Positions 39,245 through 55,733 of a stretch of 64,000 nt of DNA are shown in pieces. The DNA is taken from the NCBI RefSeq assembly GCF_014837245.1, contig NZ_JACYFU010000001.1:248001-312000 (forward strand). Direction: 5' to 3'. Below the pieces are notes generated by a model. That model was given only the letters and a program-made list of their open reading frames with translations. It did not search any database and was not told the DNA's origin. How positions within the stretch are numbered: the stretch's first letter is position 1; each line of letters starts with the position of its first letter. The position numbers and the translations under genes are program-made. Source of the stretch: Devosia oryzisoli (GTDB taxonomy: Bacteria; Pseudomonadota; Alphaproteobacteria; Rhizobiales; Devosiaceae).

Positions 39245-39349
39245 CTGTTAAGCTGCCAGGTGAGGGCCATCAACGCTTCGCAGGAAGCTGACTCATTTCG
39301 ACACTTTTGCGCGGCCCGTTCACAATTTTACAGGCCTGCTGTGACGACT

Positions 39350-39374
39350 GGAACCGGGGGCTTTTTGCTTCGTT
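39350..39374 (+). promoter_or_regulatory. EcfG-type (general stress response) promoter
   Basis: GGAAC at 39350-39354 and CGTT at 39371-39374 are separated by exactly 16 bases, a perfect match to the alphaproteobacterial EcfG consensus. No CDS begins soon after it. The first downstream signal is the terminator ending at 39539, which gives a transcript of about 160 nt. Confidence 0.6.
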
Positions 39375-39380
39375 GACGAG

Positions 39381-39539
39381 GCAAGCCCGGCCGCAGAATG
39401 CACCATCGGCGGTCGGCATAGTCACGACGGAACGCCAACAGAGCCTCCGTCTCGGATCGGAGGATGGCCGCAAAGGTTGACGCTCCTCTGCGGCTTCCCC
39501 GGTGGGGCGCGAAACTTCGGTTTCGCGCCCTGTTTTTTT
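39381..39539 (+). ncRNA. Candidate stress-induced small RNA
   Basis: This proposed ~160-nt transcript runs from about 7 bases after the EcfG-type promoter to the T-run of a strong terminator. Internal pairing is possible (CCTCCG with CGGAGG around 39444-39463), and a C-rich single-stranded-looking stretch, GGCTTCCCCGG, precedes the terminator stem. The context recalls GsrN, an EcfG-driven small RNA of Caulobacter, but I cannot assert homology. The 5' end is inferred from the promoter only. Confidence 0.5.
39505..39539 (+). terminator. Strong intrinsic terminator
   Basis: An 11-bp perfect stem, GGGCGCGAAAC/GTTTCGCGCCC, with a TTCG tetraloop is followed by TGTTTTTTT. No protein gene lies in the 260 bp before it, so it most likely ends a non-coding RNA. 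Confidence 0.92.
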
Positions 39540-39717: not shown

Positions 39718-40466
39718 ATGAAGTCCCTTGTTATTTCGGCCTCTGCGGCAATCCTGCTTGCGGGCGTGTCCTTCCCCGCGCAGGCGCAGTCCGTTCTGGG
39801 CGTGGGGGTCCCAAAGGCAGCGATGCCGCCGCCACGCTCGGCTCGGGCGACGCAGGCAATAGCGGCCTCGCCAATGTCGGTGTGGGCGGGGACAACCAGG
39901 TGCTCGATGCTAACATCGGCGGGACTGACAGCAGCATCGCGAACGCAACCGTAGGCTCGGGTGGCGGCAGTGCCGCCGATGCCGATATCGACCTCCTCGG
40001 CGGCGGGGCCAATGCGGACGTGATCGTCGGTGGCGGCGGTTTGGCGGGCGTTACGGTCGGTGTGGGAAGCGGTGGTAGCGGTGGATCTGGTGCAAGCCCG
40101 GCTGGTAATGGATACGGGGCAGGCGGCGGCGTTGCGGCGGTCACCAATGCACGATCTGCGACCGGTGCGCTGCCCGATTGTGACGGGGTATCTGGACAAC
40201 AGGTGCAGGCGCTCCTGTCGTCGACCCAGATCGATGGCCCCTGGCAGCGGGCCAGTAACGTCAGTATCGAGAGGGTGGATGTGTGCCCCGCACTGCGCAT
40301 CCAACTGTCCGCTACGCTCAGCAGCAGTGGGCTGGGCGACCAGTTGCAATCGGCCATTCTGAGCGATCCACTGCTGAGTGCGTCCCTTGCGCGCTCAAGC
40401 TACAGCGCATCGCGTGTTTTCGCCGTCGAGCAGGATGGAAACACCCTCACGGTCTACGTTTACTGA
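39718..40466 (+). pseudogene. Secreted Gly/Ala/Ser-rich protein gene with a frameshift
   Basis: The first frame gives a clean signal peptide (MKSLVISASAAILLAGVSFP to AQAQSVLG). After about base 39805-39817 it becomes implausible and soon stops. From there another forward frame reads GSDAAATLGSGDAGNSGLAN and onward to the stop at 40466, with repeated Gly-rich segments and a C-terminal domain (DGVSGQQVQALLSS to GNTLTVYVY). One missing base in the GTGGGGGTCCCAAAGG stretch would restore a ~249-residue protein. It may be a true mutation, a sequencing/assembly indel in the G-run, or phase variation. The family is not recognised. Confidence 0.7.
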
Positions 40467-40707: not shown

Positions 40708-42342
40708 TTACCGGCGTTCGCCGTTGCAACGCAGCCAGCAATAGCCGAAGGGCGAGAGGGTGATGGGTTCATCCGGCCCGAGCGGGTCGAGCGGCGTGTC
40801 GTCCGTCAGCATGGGCGTCAGGGTGCGGATCGAAGTGTCGTCCAGATGGAAGGACTTGTTGCGATCCGAGAAGTTGTGGGCGGTAAAGACGCGGTTGCCC
40901 CGCCAGGTGCTCTCCAGCACTAGGAGCTCGTCGTCGCCCACATCCACGATGTTGACGCCATCCCAGCCGATTTCCGGCGAGGAGCGGCGGGTCGAGATCA
41001 TGTCCGAGACGGCGTGAAACAGTGAATCCCGGCGGTGCACCTCTGCCGCGGCGTTGACGGTCTTGTAGCTGAACTTGCCCTTGTCGATGACGGGGCGGAT
41101 CAGCTTGTTCGGGTCCGCTGACGAAAAACCGGCATTGGGTTCCTGCGACCACTGCATGGGCGTGCGCACCGCCTCACGCTCCTTGAGCGACTGATCGTCC
41201 CCCATGCCGATCTCGTCACCATACCACAGCACCGGCGTGCCCGGCAGGGACATGAGCAGCGAGAAGGCCAGCTTGAGGCGCCGCTCGTCGCCGTCCAGCA
41301 TGCTGGCGAGCCGGCGGCGAATGCCGCGGTCGTAGATCTGCATCTCCGGCTTCGGTCCGAAGGCGGCAAAGCACTCGGACTTTTCCTGCTCGGTAAGACG
41401 GCCCAGGTCCAGTTCGTCGTGGTTGCGCAGAAAGTTTGCCCACTGGCCCATGCCATTGGGGGCAGGGCGGGCGGCGAGGGCTTGCCGCAGAGGGGCGGCC
41501 GTCTTCTGCGCCAAGGACAGGAAGAGGTGCTGGTTGCCGATGAAGTCGAACACCATGGTCATGCGGTCGCCGGCGTCGAAATAGCTCTGCGCCACGTCGT
41601 AGTCGATGTTGGCTTCCGCCAGCAGCACCGCCTCCGCCTTGCGCCAGGAGAGGAAGTTGTGAATGTCGGTCAGGAAGGAATAGGGGTCGGTCACAGGCTT
41701 GTCGGTCAAGACGCCCCGCGGCTCGATGAGGAAGGGGACGGCATCGACGCGAAAACCGGACACGCCCAGCTCGAGCCAGAACCCCATGATCTTGAGGATT
41801 TCGGCCCGCACCTCGGGGTTGGTCACGTTGAGGTCGGGCTGGAACTGGTAAAAGCGGTGCATGTACCAGGCTTTAGCGGCATTGTCGTATGTCCAGATTC
41901 CCTTCTGGACGCCCGGGAAAACGATCCCGTCCGTGATGTTGTCCGGCTTGTCCTTGCGCCAGACGTACCAGTCCCGGTAGGGCGAATTCGGATCGGATCG
42001 CGCCGACTGGAACCAGGGGTGCTGGTCCGATGTGTGGTTGACCACCAGATCGACAATGACGCGCATGCCGCGGTCCTTTGCCGCCTGCATGAACTCGACG
42101 AAGTCGCCCAGATTTCCAAGCTGCGGATCGACCGCGTAGTAGTCCGCGATGTCGTAGCCATTGTCCTTGCGCGGGGAGGGATAGAACGGGTTGAGCCAGA
42201 TGCAGGTGACGCCCAGCCGCTCCAGATGGTCGAGCCGGTCCGCCAGCCCGGCAAAATCGCCCACGCCGTCCCCATTGGCATCCATGAAGCTTTTCACGTC
42301 GACGCAGTAGACGACGGCGTTGCGGTACCAGAGATTGGCCAT
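40708..42342 (-). CDS. GH13 alpha-amylase family enzyme, trehalose-synthase (TreS)-like
   Basis: This 544-residue enzyme begins NLWYRNAVVYCVDVKSFMDA and contains IWLNPFYPSPRKDNGYDIAD, DLVVNHTSDQHPWFQ, the nucleophile in VSGFRVDAVPFL, the acid/base Glu in AVLLAEANIDY and the third acid in RNHDELDLGRL. These match the TreS-like GH13 group, which rearranges maltose into trehalose or transfers glucosyl units. It lacks a fused maltokinase domain. The actual substrate is not certain; alpha-glucosidase activity is the alternative. An EcfG-type promoter precedes it, and trehalose is a common stress protectant. Confidence 0.88.
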   Translation of the reverse strand: MANLWYRNAVVYCVDVKSFMDANGDGVGDFAGLADRLDHLERLGVTCIWLNPFYPSPRKDNGYDIADYYAVDPQLGNLGDFVEFMQAAKDRGMRVIVDLVVNHTSDQHPWFQSARSDPNSPYRDWYVWRKDKPDNITDGIVFPGVQKGIWTYDNAAKAWYMHRFYQFQPDLNVTNPEVRAEILKIMGFWLELGVSGFRVDAVPFLIEPRGVLTDKPVTDPYSFLTDIHNFLSWRKAEAVLLAEANIDYDVAQSYFDAGDRMTMVFDFIGNQHLFLSLAQKTAAPLRQALAARPAPNGMGQWANFLRNHDELDLGRLTEQEKSECFAAFGPKPEMQIYDRGIRRRLASMLDGDERRLKLAFSLLMSLPGTPVLWYGDEIGMGDDQSLKEREAVRTPMQWSQEPNAGFSSADPNKLIRPVIDKGKFSYKTVNAAAEVHRRDSLFHAVSDMISTRRSSPEIGWDGVNIVDVGDDELLVLESTWRGNRVFTAHNFSDRNKSFHLDDTSIRTLTPMLTDDTPLDPLGPDEPITLSPFGYCWLRCNGERR

Positions 42343-42369
42343 TCTCGCTCCTCTTGATGACCAGTCCGC

Positions 42370-42395
42370 AACGGCAGGGCGCGCGACGTCGTTCC
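42370..42395 (-). promoter_or_regulatory. EcfG-type promoter upstream of the TreS-like gene
   Basis: On the minus strand, GGAAC (42395-42391) and CGTT (42373-42370) are 17 bases apart, a perfect EcfG consensus match. The predicted transcription start lies about 20 bp before the ATG at 42342. This places the enzyme in the general stress regulon, as is known for trehalose genes in other alphaproteobacteria. Confidence 0.6.
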
Positions 42396-47033: not shown

Positions 47034-47722
47034 GTGGCACCGCCCGCGCCCAGGCCCTGGCGGAGATGGCCTTTTGCGAAGATGTCCTCGCCAAGGGCGG
47101 GCTCAGCGTGGTCACGGCCACACTGGCCGGCGTTGACCAGATCGGGGCGTGGGAACACTACCCCGCGGCCGATGTCTATGATCCGGTCAGCGGTGGCCAG
47201 TGGTACTACCATTGCCACCCTGCAGAGGAGGGGTCCGCGGAACACGGCCATTTCCACTGCTTCGTCCGTCCCGATGGTCCCGATGGCCCGATCCACCACC
47301 TCCTGGCGATCGGGGTGGATGCGCAGGGCAAGCTGTTGCGCCTGTTCACCGTCAACCACTGGGTGGTGGGCGACGACTGGATCGACGCGGAGGCGACGAT
47401 TCCTCTGCTGGCGCGGTTCGACATGCAGATGCCGGTGCCGTCTTACCTCGTCAATCGCTGGCTCACGGGCGTCTTTGGGGCTTATGATGCAGAGATCGCG
47501 GGTTTGATCCGGGCCCGGGACGAGGCGCTTGCCGAACGGGGGGCAGCGCTGCACCTGCGGTGCGTGAAGACCGGAACCTTGAAGTTCTTTCCGAATTGTA
47601 CATTAAGTCTGTCGGCGAAGCATAGTCGCGCGCACGTGGAACTTTCACGCGCGGCTGACGTTGCTGGCTGGCGGGGTGTGTTAGGGACCCGCCGTATTGG
47701 GGGTCTAGTGCATAATGGCTGA
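47030..47722 (+). CDS. Uncharacterised protein (DUF6969-like)
   Basis: This 230-residue soluble protein has a His/Trp/Tyr-rich core: WEHYPAADVYDPVSGGQWYY, HCHPAEEGSAEHGHFHCFVR, GPIHHLLAIGVDAQGKLLRL and FTVNHWVVGDDW. The clustered His residues suggest metal or cofactor binding. It resembles a domain I associate with DUF6969, but this is from memory and function is unknown. The start ATG overlaps the previous stop. The last ~45 residues (after RCVKTGTLKFF) look unlike the domain and overlap a promoter region, so they may be non-conserved read-through. Confidence 0.72.
   Translation: MSGTARAQALAEMAFCEDVLAKGGLSVVTATLAGVDQIGAWEHYPAADVYDPVSGGQWYYHCHPAEEGSAEHGHFHCFVRPDGPDGPIHHLLAIGVDAQGKLLRLFTVNHWVVGDDWIDAEATIPLLARFDMQMPVPSYLVNRWLTGVFGAYDAEIAGLIRARDEALAERGAALHLRCVKTGTLKFFPNCTLSLSAKHSRAHVELSRAADVAGWRGVLGTRRIGGLVHNG
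47638..47662 (+). promoter_or_regulatory. EcfG-type promoter upstream of the HWE kinase
   Basis: GGAAC (47638-47642) and CGTT (47659-47662) are 16 bases apart, a perfect consensus match. It ends 52 bp before the kinase start, inside the 3' end of the preceding gene. HWE kinases often take part in the general stress response, and control by the same sigma factor would be feedback. Confidence 0.6.
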
Positions 47723-49157
47723 GGTGGATTTCGCGCAGGTCTTTCAGGCGCTCCCCAGCCCATTCATGATCCTCGATCGCGAATTTCGGTACGTTGCGGC
47801 CAATCCAGCCTATTTGGCCACCACCGGCCGGACGATGGACGAGCTGCGCGGCGAGAACATTTTCGGTAAGTTTCCCAACCGCGGGGAGAGTGGCCGGCGC
47901 TTGCAGGAATCATTCGAGCGCGTGCTGGCGACAGGCGAACCCGATACGCTGGCTTATCTGGCCTACCCCATCCCCGATGCCGATGGCCGGATGACCAATC
48001 GCTATTGGACCGCGGTTCACGTCCCGCTCTTTGGCGCGGACGGGACGGTCGAATTCGTGATGCAGAATACGGTGGATGTGACCGAATATGCGCGTCTGCG
48101 CGAAGCGGCCACCTTGCCCTTCACGTCCTTGTCTGCCGAAACCTCCCTGATCGAGCGCACACGGGAGGCCGCAGAGGCCAGCGCCAATTTCCGGCGTCTC
48201 TTCCAGCAGGCGCCGGCGTTCTTTGCTGTCCTCTCGGGGCCCACGCATATTTTCACCTTCGCTTCGGACAGCTATCTTCGGCTGGTCGGGAACCGCGAGG
48301 TGGTGGGGCAGACAGTCGCGGAAGCGCTGCCCGAGGTCATCGACCAGGGCTTTATCGAGCTTCTCGATCGAGTGTTCCATGAGGGGTACGCCCATTCCCA
48401 GGAAAGCGCCCGTGTCATGCTGGCGCGTACGGCGGGCAGGCCGCCCGAGGAAACCTTCCTCGATTTCTCCTATCACCCCATCCGCGACCCGTCGGGCGAA
48501 ATCACCGGCGTCTTTGTCCAGGGCATGGACCGCACCGAGTCGGTGCGGTTCGCGCAGCGTCAACGCCTTCTGATCGATGAGCTCAACCACCGCGTGAAGA
48601 ATACCCTGGCCACGGTGCAGTCCATCGCCAGCCAGAGCTTCCGATCCACCAGTGATGTCGCCGCCGCCAAGCGCGCCTTCGAGGCCCGGCTGGTGGCTTT
48701 GTCACAGGCCCACAACATGCTCAGTGACCGGCAGTGGCACGACACCGAAATGGACCGCCTGGTGTGCCAGGAACTCAGCATCTTCGATCCGCGGCAAGTC
48801 CGCTCTTCCGGGCCGAGCCTGCGGGTGAATGCCAAGGCCACCGTGGCGCTGGCCCTCCTCATCCATGAACTGGCGACCAATGCCGCCAGGCACGGGTCAT
48901 TGTCCAATCCCGAAGGCTCTCTTGCGGTGGAGTGGGGCGAGGACGCGCAGGGCAATCTCGTCATCGACTGGATCGAACGGGGCGGCCCGCCGGCCCGGGA
49001 ACCGCAAAAGCACGGCTTCGGCTCGCGCCTCCTGCACACCGTCGTCACGGGGGAACTCGGCGGCAAATTGCAGACCCGCTTCGAGGATGAGGGGTTTGCC
49101 GCCCACATCGTCTTGCCATCCGGAGCCTATATTGCGCAGGAGAACAGCCTTGTCTGA
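47715..49157 (+). CDS. HWE/HisKA_2-type PAS sensor histidine kinase
   Basis: This 480-residue cytoplasmic kinase has no membrane segment. PAS 1 (about 8-130) begins QALPSPFMILDREFRYVAAN. PAS 2 (about 155-275) contains PAFFAVLSGPTHIFTFASDS. The phosphorylated His292 lies in ELNHRVKNTLATVQSIASQS, the H-box of HWE/HisKA_2 kinases. The ATP-binding domain has LALLIHELATNAARHGSLS and HGFGSRLLHTVV. It overlaps the response regulator start by eight bases, so the two form a pair. The signal, perhaps light or redox, is unknown; no LOV cysteine motif (NCRFL) is seen. Confidence 0.93.
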   Translation: MAEVDFAQVFQALPSPFMILDREFRYVAANPAYLATTGRTMDELRGENIFGKFPNRGESGRRLQESFERVLATGEPDTLAYLAYPIPDADGRMTNRYWTAVHVPLFGADGTVEFVMQNTVDVTEYARLREAATLPFTSLSAETSLIERTREAAEASANFRRLFQQAPAFFAVLSGPTHIFTFASDSYLRLVGNREVVGQTVAEALPEVIDQGFIELLDRVFHEGYAHSQESARVMLARTAGRPPEETFLDFSYHPIRDPSGEITGVFVQGMDRTESVRFAQRQRLLIDELNHRVKNTLATVQSIASQSFRSTSDVAAAKRAFEARLVALSQAHNMLSDRQWHDTEMDRLVCQELSIFDPRQVRSSGPSLRVNAKATVALALLIHELATNAARHGSLSNPEGSLAVEWGEDAQGNLVIDWIERGGPPAREPQKHGFGSRLLHTVVTGELGGKLQTRFEDEGFAAHIVLPSGAYIAQENSLV

Positions 49158-52537: not shown

Positions 52538-53437
52538 TCAGGCGTGTGAGTCGCCCTGCTGGCGGATGATGTCCGCGACCTGCCGGAAGATCGCCCCATA
52601 GGGCGTGGCCTCGCGCCAGACCAGGCGCAGGCGCCGCGCCGCGTGCGGATCGGCCAGTTCATGAACCGCTATGCGCGGATCGCCGGCCTCCCGGCGCAGG
52701 GCGATGCTGGGCAACAGGGTAATGCCCTGTCCGTTGGCGACGAACTCCACGATGGTGGACAACGACGTCGCGGCAAATGTCCGCGAACTCCGGTGGCCCT
52801 CTAGACGGCACGCGGCGATCGTCTGGTCGCGGAAGCAATGGCCTTCGTCGAGCAGCAAGATGCGGTCGGCCGGAAGACCCTCCAGCGAGATCGGTTGTGG
52901 GGCATCCTCGTGCCTCGACATCGCCAGCACAAAAGGATCGTCGAACAGAGGCACGCTTTCGAGCCGCGGGCCGTCCGCGGACGGGTCCGTCGCAATCAGC
53001 GCCAGATCGATCGTCCCATCCCAGAGGCCCGCCAGGAGTGCCTCGGTGCGGCTTTCGCTGATGGCAAAGCGGAGGTCCGGCAATTGTACGGTCAGACGCG
53101 GGAACAGATCGGGCAGGAGATAGGGCGCCACCGTCGGGATGAGGCCGAAGCGCAAGGGCCGGTCGGGCTTGCCGCTATGGCCGAAAGCGAAGGCGTTGAC
53201 GGCGTCGGCCGCCTTTAACGCCTCCTCGGAAAGATCGATGAACCGCTGGCCGAACGGGGTCGGGCGGATGCCGCTCTTGAGGCGATCGAACAGCGTCGTC
53301 CCGAACATCGTCTCGAGCGCCAGGACTTGCTGTGACAATGCCGGCTGCGAGATGGCGCACTCCCGTGCTGCCCGGCCGAAGTGACCGGTTCGCGCGACCG
53401 CCACCACGTACCGCATCTGTTTGAGCGTAACGGTCAC
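52538..53437 (-). CDS. oxyR: Hydrogen-peroxide-sensing regulator OxyR
   Basis: This 299-residue LysR-type regulator has an N-terminal winged helix (MRYVVAVARTGHFGRAAREC) and a sensing domain with the redox pair Cys201 and Cys210 in LLLDEGHCFRDQTIAACRLE. These correspond to Cys199/Cys208 of E. coli OxyR, and SLSTIVEFVANGQGITLLPS follows. It starts with GTG, preceded by GGAG five bases away. It is divergent from katG across a 94-bp region, the usual regulator-target layout, so it most likely activates katG on peroxide exposure. Confidence 0.95.
   Translation of the reverse strand: MTVTLKQMRYVVAVARTGHFGRAARECAISQPALSQQVLALETMFGTTLFDRLKSGIRPTPFGQRFIDLSEEALKAADAVNAFAFGHSGKPDRPLRFGLIPTVAPYLLPDLFPRLTVQLPDLRFAISESRTEALLAGLWDGTIDLALIATDPSADGPRLESVPLFDDPFVLAMSRHEDAPQPISLEGLPADRILLLDEGHCFRDQTIAACRLEGHRSSRTFAATSLSTIVEFVANGQGITLLPSIALRREAGDPRIAVHELADPHAARRLRLVWREATPYGAIFRQVADIIRQQGDSHA

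Positions 53438-53522: not shown

Positions 53523-55733
<2,211 letters not shown>

Follow-up and report, generated by a model that had tools for sequence, protein, structure and literature searches.

A conserved RNA behind an EcfG-type promoter in Devosia, a probable small RNA of the general stress response

The window analysed here, a 64,000-nt stretch of the Devosia oryzisoli genome, contains a perfect GGAAC-N16-CGTT followed by an 11-bp terminator hairpin with a TTCG loop and seven Ts, the stem of which begins 131 bases after the CGTT. An earlier note on this DNA had described the arrangement, which is present in the sequence as stated, and had read it as an EcfG-controlled small RNA (sRNA) without a protein gene. 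The locus raises the question of whether such an RNA lies between the two signals and, if so, on what it would act, in a response, the alphaproteobacterial general stress response, for which there are few sRNAs with a defined conserved family. The first half of the question finds strong support in sequence conservation, through the promoter, covariation in the stems and a core common to all of the family RNAs, and the RNA is very probably an EcfG-controlled sRNA. The coordinates of its features and of a candidate target are collected in Table 1.

Table 1. Features of the RNA locus and of the candidate target gene (positions within the window)
Feature	Position	Strand	Remarks
TTCACA, own (weak) copy of the ATCACA box	39319..39324	+	one letter off; one base further out
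EcfG-type promoter GGAAC-N16-CGTT	39350..39374	+	-35 box 39350-39354, 16-nt spacer, -10 box 39371-39374; 62 of 68 genus loci have a perfect copy
Small RNA	39380..39538	+	start inferred about 6 nt after the -10 box; covariance model R1 scores 129.6 bits on this copy, which is among the 30 sequences used to build R1
Hairpin 2	39426..39451	+	stem sequence and length variable, pairing kept; two-sided changes in all 6 pairs, 91.3% of cells paired
Hairpin 3, long stem and conserved loop	39456..39503	+	helices 2 and 3 of the 89-sequence alignment, 92.7% and 98.5% paired
Apical loop UUGACGCU, proposed seed	39477..39484	+	inside hairpin 3
Intrinsic terminator	39505..39539	+	11-bp stem (39505-39515 / 39520-39530), TTCG loop 39516-39519, TG, seven T 39533-39539; also found by a terminator scan; 99.8% of cells paired, two-sided changes in 8 of 11 pairs
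GH13 gene, trehalose-synthase-like, candidate target	40708..42342	-	TreS N-terminal model TIGR02456, E 1.9e-165, below the equivalog cut-off
Predicted pairing site AGAGGAGCG	42346..42354	-	in the Shine-Dalgarno region of that gene; pairing only predicted
EcfG-like promoter GGAAC-N17-CGTT of the candidate target	42370..42395	-	pattern scan

Promoter and stress-response context

A single promoter match is weak evidence in this window. The earlier note had estimated that about one would occur by chance in 64 kb, a figure close to the 0.87 GGAAC-N16/17-CGTT sites expected from shuffling, and four are present. In 1.284 Mb of the D. oryzisoli genome (24 kb of which was counted twice) there were 29 sites with a spacer of 16, compared to 5–11 for each of the spacers 12–15 and 17–21, and in 400 kb of a relative (G031) there was no excess at spacer 16, with two sites vs. 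one to three at each of the spacers 13–15 and 17–19. The promoter is judged to be real because of its conservation across the genus loci, which is decisive where the single-site count is weak. Of 67 genus loci, 61 had the perfect N16 promoter in the site window, whereas each of eight control windows had it in none of 64–67 loci; a further perfect promoter just outside the site window (L118) raises the total to 62 of 68. Three of the remaining loci have imperfect versions (AGTT in L002 and L003, a spacer of 17 in L194) and three have none (L121, L123, and L119, which runs into the end of its contig). In the first DNA alignments conservation appeared confined to the 3' half and the promoter spurious, a reading overturned once the 30 best loci had been oriented, with GGAAC-N16-[CA]GTT found in 30/30 (28 CGTT, two AGTT), 107–125 bases before the core GG[CT]TGACGCTCC. 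In the other genera of the family, GCAAC-N16-CGTT was found in the site window of eight of 21 loci vs. 0–1 of 20–21 in the controls, with more found in a wider look that had no matched control. According to the accessible part of a study of Sphingopyxis (PMC7083833), EcfG -35 boxes in that genus most often read GGAAC or GCAAC. A sigma-70-like match further upstream (39298-39326; 9 of 12 positions, 0.7 expected by chance) is no better than chance.

Upstream of the promoter there is a second conserved element. Of 66 promoter-bearing genus loci, 39 had the sequence ATCACA no more than 60 bp upstream of the -35 box, compared to 0–1 of 63–66 in seven control windows and none of 14 loci from other genera of the family. 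Its positions relative to the -35 box fall at -30 (17 loci), -18 to -20 (21 loci), and -27 (one locus), the two main distances differing by about one helical turn. As TCACA occurred within 60 bases upstream of only three of 40 N16/17 sites from the D. oryzisoli stretches and the window, with one of the three sharing the -30 spacing of the box at the sRNA itself, the element does not appear to be a general part of EcfG promoters and is probably a putative activator site.

In D. oryzisoli, contig C8 carries genes for NepR and an EcfG-type sigma factor (based on Pfam), EcfG sites, and an ORF, response-regulator-like at one end, that was read by eye as PhyR from its position and sequence; hfq is present in the same genome. 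With nepR at C8:9242 and the RNA at C1:287380, the RNA lies away from the general-stress-response locus. The EcfG site behind phyR on C8 was considered as a GsrN-like gene and rejected, with a short membrane-protein-like ORF (by eye) there instead. In the stretch L189:10434-10700 an EcfG promoter lies immediately 3' of phyR, with a short membrane-protein-like ORF and then a terminator after it. Within the window, a second perfect GGAAC-N16-CGTT (47638-47662, +) precedes a gene for a PAS/HWE histidine kinase (47715-49157, +); HWE kinases are inputs to PhyR.

Structure and distribution of the RNA

From the inferred start to the terminator the RNA is about 155–158 nt long, and the D. oryzisoli copy has a predicted fold of -79.7 kcal/mol (z = -3.5), with one of 200 shuffles as good. 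In an alignment of 89 sequences (88 distinct), 96.4% of cells were paired and 22 of 29 pairs had two-sided changes, values for which none of 500 shuffles reached any of the five measures used; sliding the partner by one to three columns reduced pairing to 41–58%. This alignment was fitted to the covariance model R1, which favours pairing, and relatedness can mimic part of the covariation. A MAFFT alignment of 30 sequences already had two-sided changes in 12 of the 29 pairs. In hairpin 3 the inner stem of the D. oryzisoli copy, alone among the 30 aligned RNAs, is interrupted by an A-C mismatch (39473 / 39488), and the changed base belongs to a perfect 9-bp match with the leader of the trehalose-synthase-like gene. 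Rfam returned no matches above the gathering scores in the 64-kb window, nor any up to an E value of 5 in a search with 301 bases.

The earlier note had named conservation in relatives as a check on its proposal, and the RNA proved to be widely conserved. With R1, built from the 30 best loci, matches at an E value of 0.01 or better were found in 94 of 136 genomes of the Devosiaceae, including 69 of 75 Devosia genomes (one of them weakly); the six Devosia genomes that had no match (G003, G040, G048, G054, G055, and G069) include incomplete assemblies. Ninety loci were collected, of which 89 match R1 at E 1e-6 (68 from the genus and 21 from other genera of the family) and one, L196 from G061, matches weakly; from the 25 family matches outside the genus, L133–L135, which lack the core loop, and G119 were left out of the set. 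The core GACGCUCC is present in 89/89 family RNAs and the heptamer UGACGCU in 87/89, the exceptions being L101 and L109.

Beyond the family (Devosia is placed in the Devosiaceae, Hyphomicrobiales) the conserved loop was found in none of the matches inspected. A search of the order (397 genomes, drawn evenly) returned matches at E 0.01 in 42 genomes, 12 within the family and 30 outside it; the core GACGCTCC was absent from all 18 of the inspected loci from those 30 genomes (L065–L082). Of a further ten loci (L133–L142; three from the family and seven from the order), the core was absent from eight even when one mismatch was allowed; the other two, L138 and L140, had one-letter near matches without a promoter. 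At the class level, 14 of 385 genomes, D. oryzisoli included, had a match at E 0.001, and the seven inspected among the other 13 (L398–L404) were ordinary terminators with neither core nor promoter. The order and class searches used stricter filters, which lose weak matches. A plasmid search returned no match. A pattern scan of named genomes found 45 stretches, 35 of them in Devosia; three of the other ten, from a Phyllobacteriaceae MAG, a Rhizobiales bacterium, and an Alphaproteobacteria MAG, are true relatives based on R1. The remaining seven (two from Dietzia and one each from another Alphaproteobacteria MAG, Hyphomonadaceae, Clostridia, Oscillospiraceae, and Thermoplasmata) had no full-length R1 match and look like chance occurrences. 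Judged by its sequence, the RNA is kept across most of Devosia and some relatives, and its occurrence is not due to chance.

Candidate targets and a proposed mechanism

The explanation that best accounts for these features, and one we regard as likely, is an RNA of the Devosiaceae transcribed by EcfG, ended by its own terminator and pairing in trans through the loop of hairpin 3. The mechanism that we infer from the sequence would begin with stress freeing EcfG from NepR, after which RNA polymerase with EcfG would transcribe the RNA from its own promoter as far as its own terminator. The accumulated RNA would then act in trans by base pairing, probably with Hfq, and pairing through hairpin 3 is the component that we favour by a modest degree. 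The conserved UGACGCU loop would make the contact and could open into the adjacent CUCCUUU strand, which we take to be a mimic of the anti-Shine-Dalgarno sequence. Translation would be blocked where the RNA pairs across a ribosome-binding site.

The search for targets gave no indication of a large set recognized through the loop. The loop complement AGCGTCA was not enriched at the start regions of 1232 crudely called D. oryzisoli genes, with four seen vs. 3.4 expected, a result that speaks against loop-matching ribosome-binding sites as a widespread feature. Across six genomes the pattern GAGCGTCA..ATG had 310 matches vs. 24 for a reversed-pattern control, an excess put down to codon usage as a candidate cause.

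The best available candidate in the D. oryzisoli genome is the trehalose-synthase-like (TreS-like) gene, a predicted target that should be taken as a weak lead and is rather unlikely. It ranked 19th of 1224 D. oryzisoli start regions by pairing and first of 210 pairs of orthologues between D. oryzisoli and G031 by summed score (-16.7 vs. -12.7 for the next), having been chosen as a candidate after the former rank and for its nearness, with its G031 locus fetched on purpose. Complementarity of the TreS-like leader to the hairpin-3 segment was within about the best 5% in ten of 13 species, expressed as the share of the 1224 D. oryzisoli start regions that are at least as complementary: 0.0025 (D. 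oryzisoli), 0.0212, 0.0482, 0.0458, 0.0515, 0.0490, 0.0458, 0.1577, 0.0155, 0.0212, 0.5784, 0.1806, and 0.0000 (G008). In G008 the segment and the leader form 15 contiguous pairs, wobble included. When accessibility was included, the leader was in the best 5% in three of the 13 species, with a median fraction of 0.25. Six of the 13 share one pairing site and are probably one clade; by pattern test, these same six have no perfect EcfG promoter at the TreS-like gene, and inspection by eye shows GGAAC followed by a changed -10 box. A further point against this target is the general ability of Shine-Dalgarno sequences to pair with CUCC.

A perfect GGAAC-N16/17-CGTT lies upstream of nine of 15 close orthologues of the TreS-like gene, that of D. 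oryzisoli included, and the gene is within about 3–10 kb of the RNA in all 13 genomes that have both. G055 and G061 possess the gene and have no RNA in the 89-sequence alignment, and were left out of the scoring. As close orthologues (73% identity or more) are present in only 15 of 75 Devosia genomes, the TreS-like gene cannot be a general target, and the estimate for it was set slightly lower because most RNA-bearing genomes lack one. If the gene were a target, its own EcfG-like promoter would make the pair an incoherent feed-forward loop that limits output. An extended version of this idea has the RNA as a two-input regulator, responding to EcfG and to an activator at ATCACA acting from one helix face at two distances, which would, where the gene is present, cover the EcfG-driven TreS-like ribosome-binding site in such a loop, with the hairpin-3 loop and its target co-evolving; this we consider doubtful, and more so in view of the narrow spread of the TreS-like gene, for which its estimate was reduced a little.

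A second gene, glgX, outscored the TreS-like gene in the accessibility test (best 5% in 15 of 29 species), with AGCGTCA preceding the gene in 23 of 30 species. There it falls in the last codons of an upstream phosphoglucomutase gene (AGC GTC AT[CT] ACC TAG) and has changed synonymously in some species (AGTGTC, AGCGTT), for which reasons glgX was discounted, though it may still be a target.

Alternative readings and known systems

The genes downstream bear on whether the RNA is free-standing. In 47 of 109 loci, a count that includes duplicate records and a few chance loci, the RNA is followed on its own strand by a relative of the secreted-protein gene 39882-40466, and the first downstream ORF begins no more than 400 nt away in 68 of the 80 loci with one called (of 89; ORF calling was crude), as might be the case for a leader or attenuator acting in cis on the downstream gene. 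Against this, a strong terminator with an almost invariably paired stem stands ahead of that gene, and the first ORFs after the RNA encode various kinds of protein, with Lrp-like regulators or other secreted proteins (named from their N-termini by eye) in some of the other loci, which fits a free-standing RNA gene and makes the cis-acting reading very unlikely. That the RNA is instead the mRNA of a tiny protein, or has a dual function, we hold to be extremely unlikely: short ORFs are present in the D. oryzisoli copy, and a TTG nine bases after the start of the core GACGCTCC, with a Shine-Dalgarno-like stretch before it, opens a reading frame in 29 of 89 loci, but these frames range in length from 18 to 196 codons and extend into or through the terminator, while length changes and compensatory changes track RNA pairing. 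No conserved ORF was found, and ATG ORFs of at least 10 codons preceded by a Shine-Dalgarno sequence occur in only two of 89 RNAs, in agreement with the statement of the earlier note that no credible ORF separates promoter and terminator. The secreted-protein gene downstream in D. oryzisoli (39718-40466, +) looks frameshifted, with a signal-peptide-like ORF at 39718-39954 and the body in another frame at 39882-40466; several relatives have one long secreted-protein ORF that begins with a signal peptide.

Two further readings concern the mode of action. The RNA may titrate a protein through its conserved loop or stem instead of pairing with mRNAs, as the stem plus loop is its most conserved part and loop complements are not enriched at start sites; no known protein-binding motif was recognised in the RNA, and this reading appears unlikely. 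The other, put forward in the earlier note, is that the RNA is the Devosia counterpart of GsrN and activates katG by pairing with its leader. The note was correct that the window contains a katG (53532-55733, +; 14 kb from the RNA), the RNA has an EcfG promoter in front of it as GsrN does, a distance of 12–29 kb separates katG and the RNA in 21 of 33 genomes with retrieved loci, that of D. oryzisoli among them (33 of 75 is not a count of genomes with katG), and in one species (L313 with L116) the RNA has a 13-bp match to katG. However, the katG leader is predicted to outdo 95% of the background start regions in pairing with the RNA in only one of 29 species (L315 was left out, its genome, G003, having no RNA match), with a median fraction of 0.38 as good or better, and a simple accessibility-corrected scan found no pairing between the RNA and the D. 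oryzisoli katG leader. The C-rich 5' loop is also lacking, with six C in the 5' half of 0/89 RNAs and five C in 2/89, and in D. oryzisoli the RNA is distant from the general-stress-response locus. In addition, katG adjoins an OxyR-like gene (52538-53437, -), and a sequence around ATCGATTGGCCTAAT that is conserved upstream of katG in most of 30 Devosia leaders is possibly a putative OxyR site, both suggesting control by OxyR. The role as a katG activator was not borne out and is, in our estimation, highly improbable.

Taken as an sRNA that would pair in trans, the Devosia RNA can be set beside other alphaproteobacterial sRNAs. Among the matches listed in a search of the literature, subscription papers aside, there was no EcfG-dependent sRNA of Devosia, and no mention of small RNAs was found in the accessible main text of the S. 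melonis EcfG regulon paper. Two groups of EcfG-driven sRNAs are already known, in Caulobacter and Sinorhizobium, so that the Devosia RNA would be a new family of a known kind. In Sinorhizobium meliloti, a member of the same order, the accessible parts of two reports (PMC3616915, PMC7143759) describe 23 sRNAs predicted behind sigma-E2 promoters of RpoE2 (EcfG), with array support for eight intergenic regions; these share EcfG-type promoters with the Devosia RNA, a comparison made by description only. SuhB of Sphingopyxis granuli is, like the proposed Devosia RNA, an alphaproteobacterial trans-acting sRNA with Hfq, and differs in its length of 61 nt and in being raised at high growth rate, as described in the accessible part of that report (PMC6563040).

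The closest comparison is with Caulobacter GsrN, which, based on the accessible text of its description by Tien et al. in 2018 (PMC5869019), pairs with katG through a 5' loop of six C, has BLASTn matches confined to the Caulobacteraceae, and has homologues that typically adjoin ecfG/phyR, C. crescentus excepted; in the same text, Rhizobiaceae candidates for GsrN were picked by position, promoter, and transcription. The Devosia RNA, as known from sequence, resembles GsrN (PMC5869019) in having an EcfG-family promoter, an intrinsic terminator, and a probable place in the alphaproteobacterial general stress response. Unlike GsrN, it has no six-C 5' loop, is not near ecfG/phyR in D. oryzisoli, has no conserved predicted pairing with katG, and carries its conserved loop in the 3' half. 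Set apart by these features from GsrN, the Devosiaceae RNA is probably a new, previously uncatalogued sRNA family, and its sharp evolutionary record of promoter, structure, and loop across dozens of named Devosia species makes EcfG dependence, seed, and targets directly testable. The comparison suggests that the stress-response sRNAs of different alphaproteobacteria need not share descent or mode of action with GsrN.
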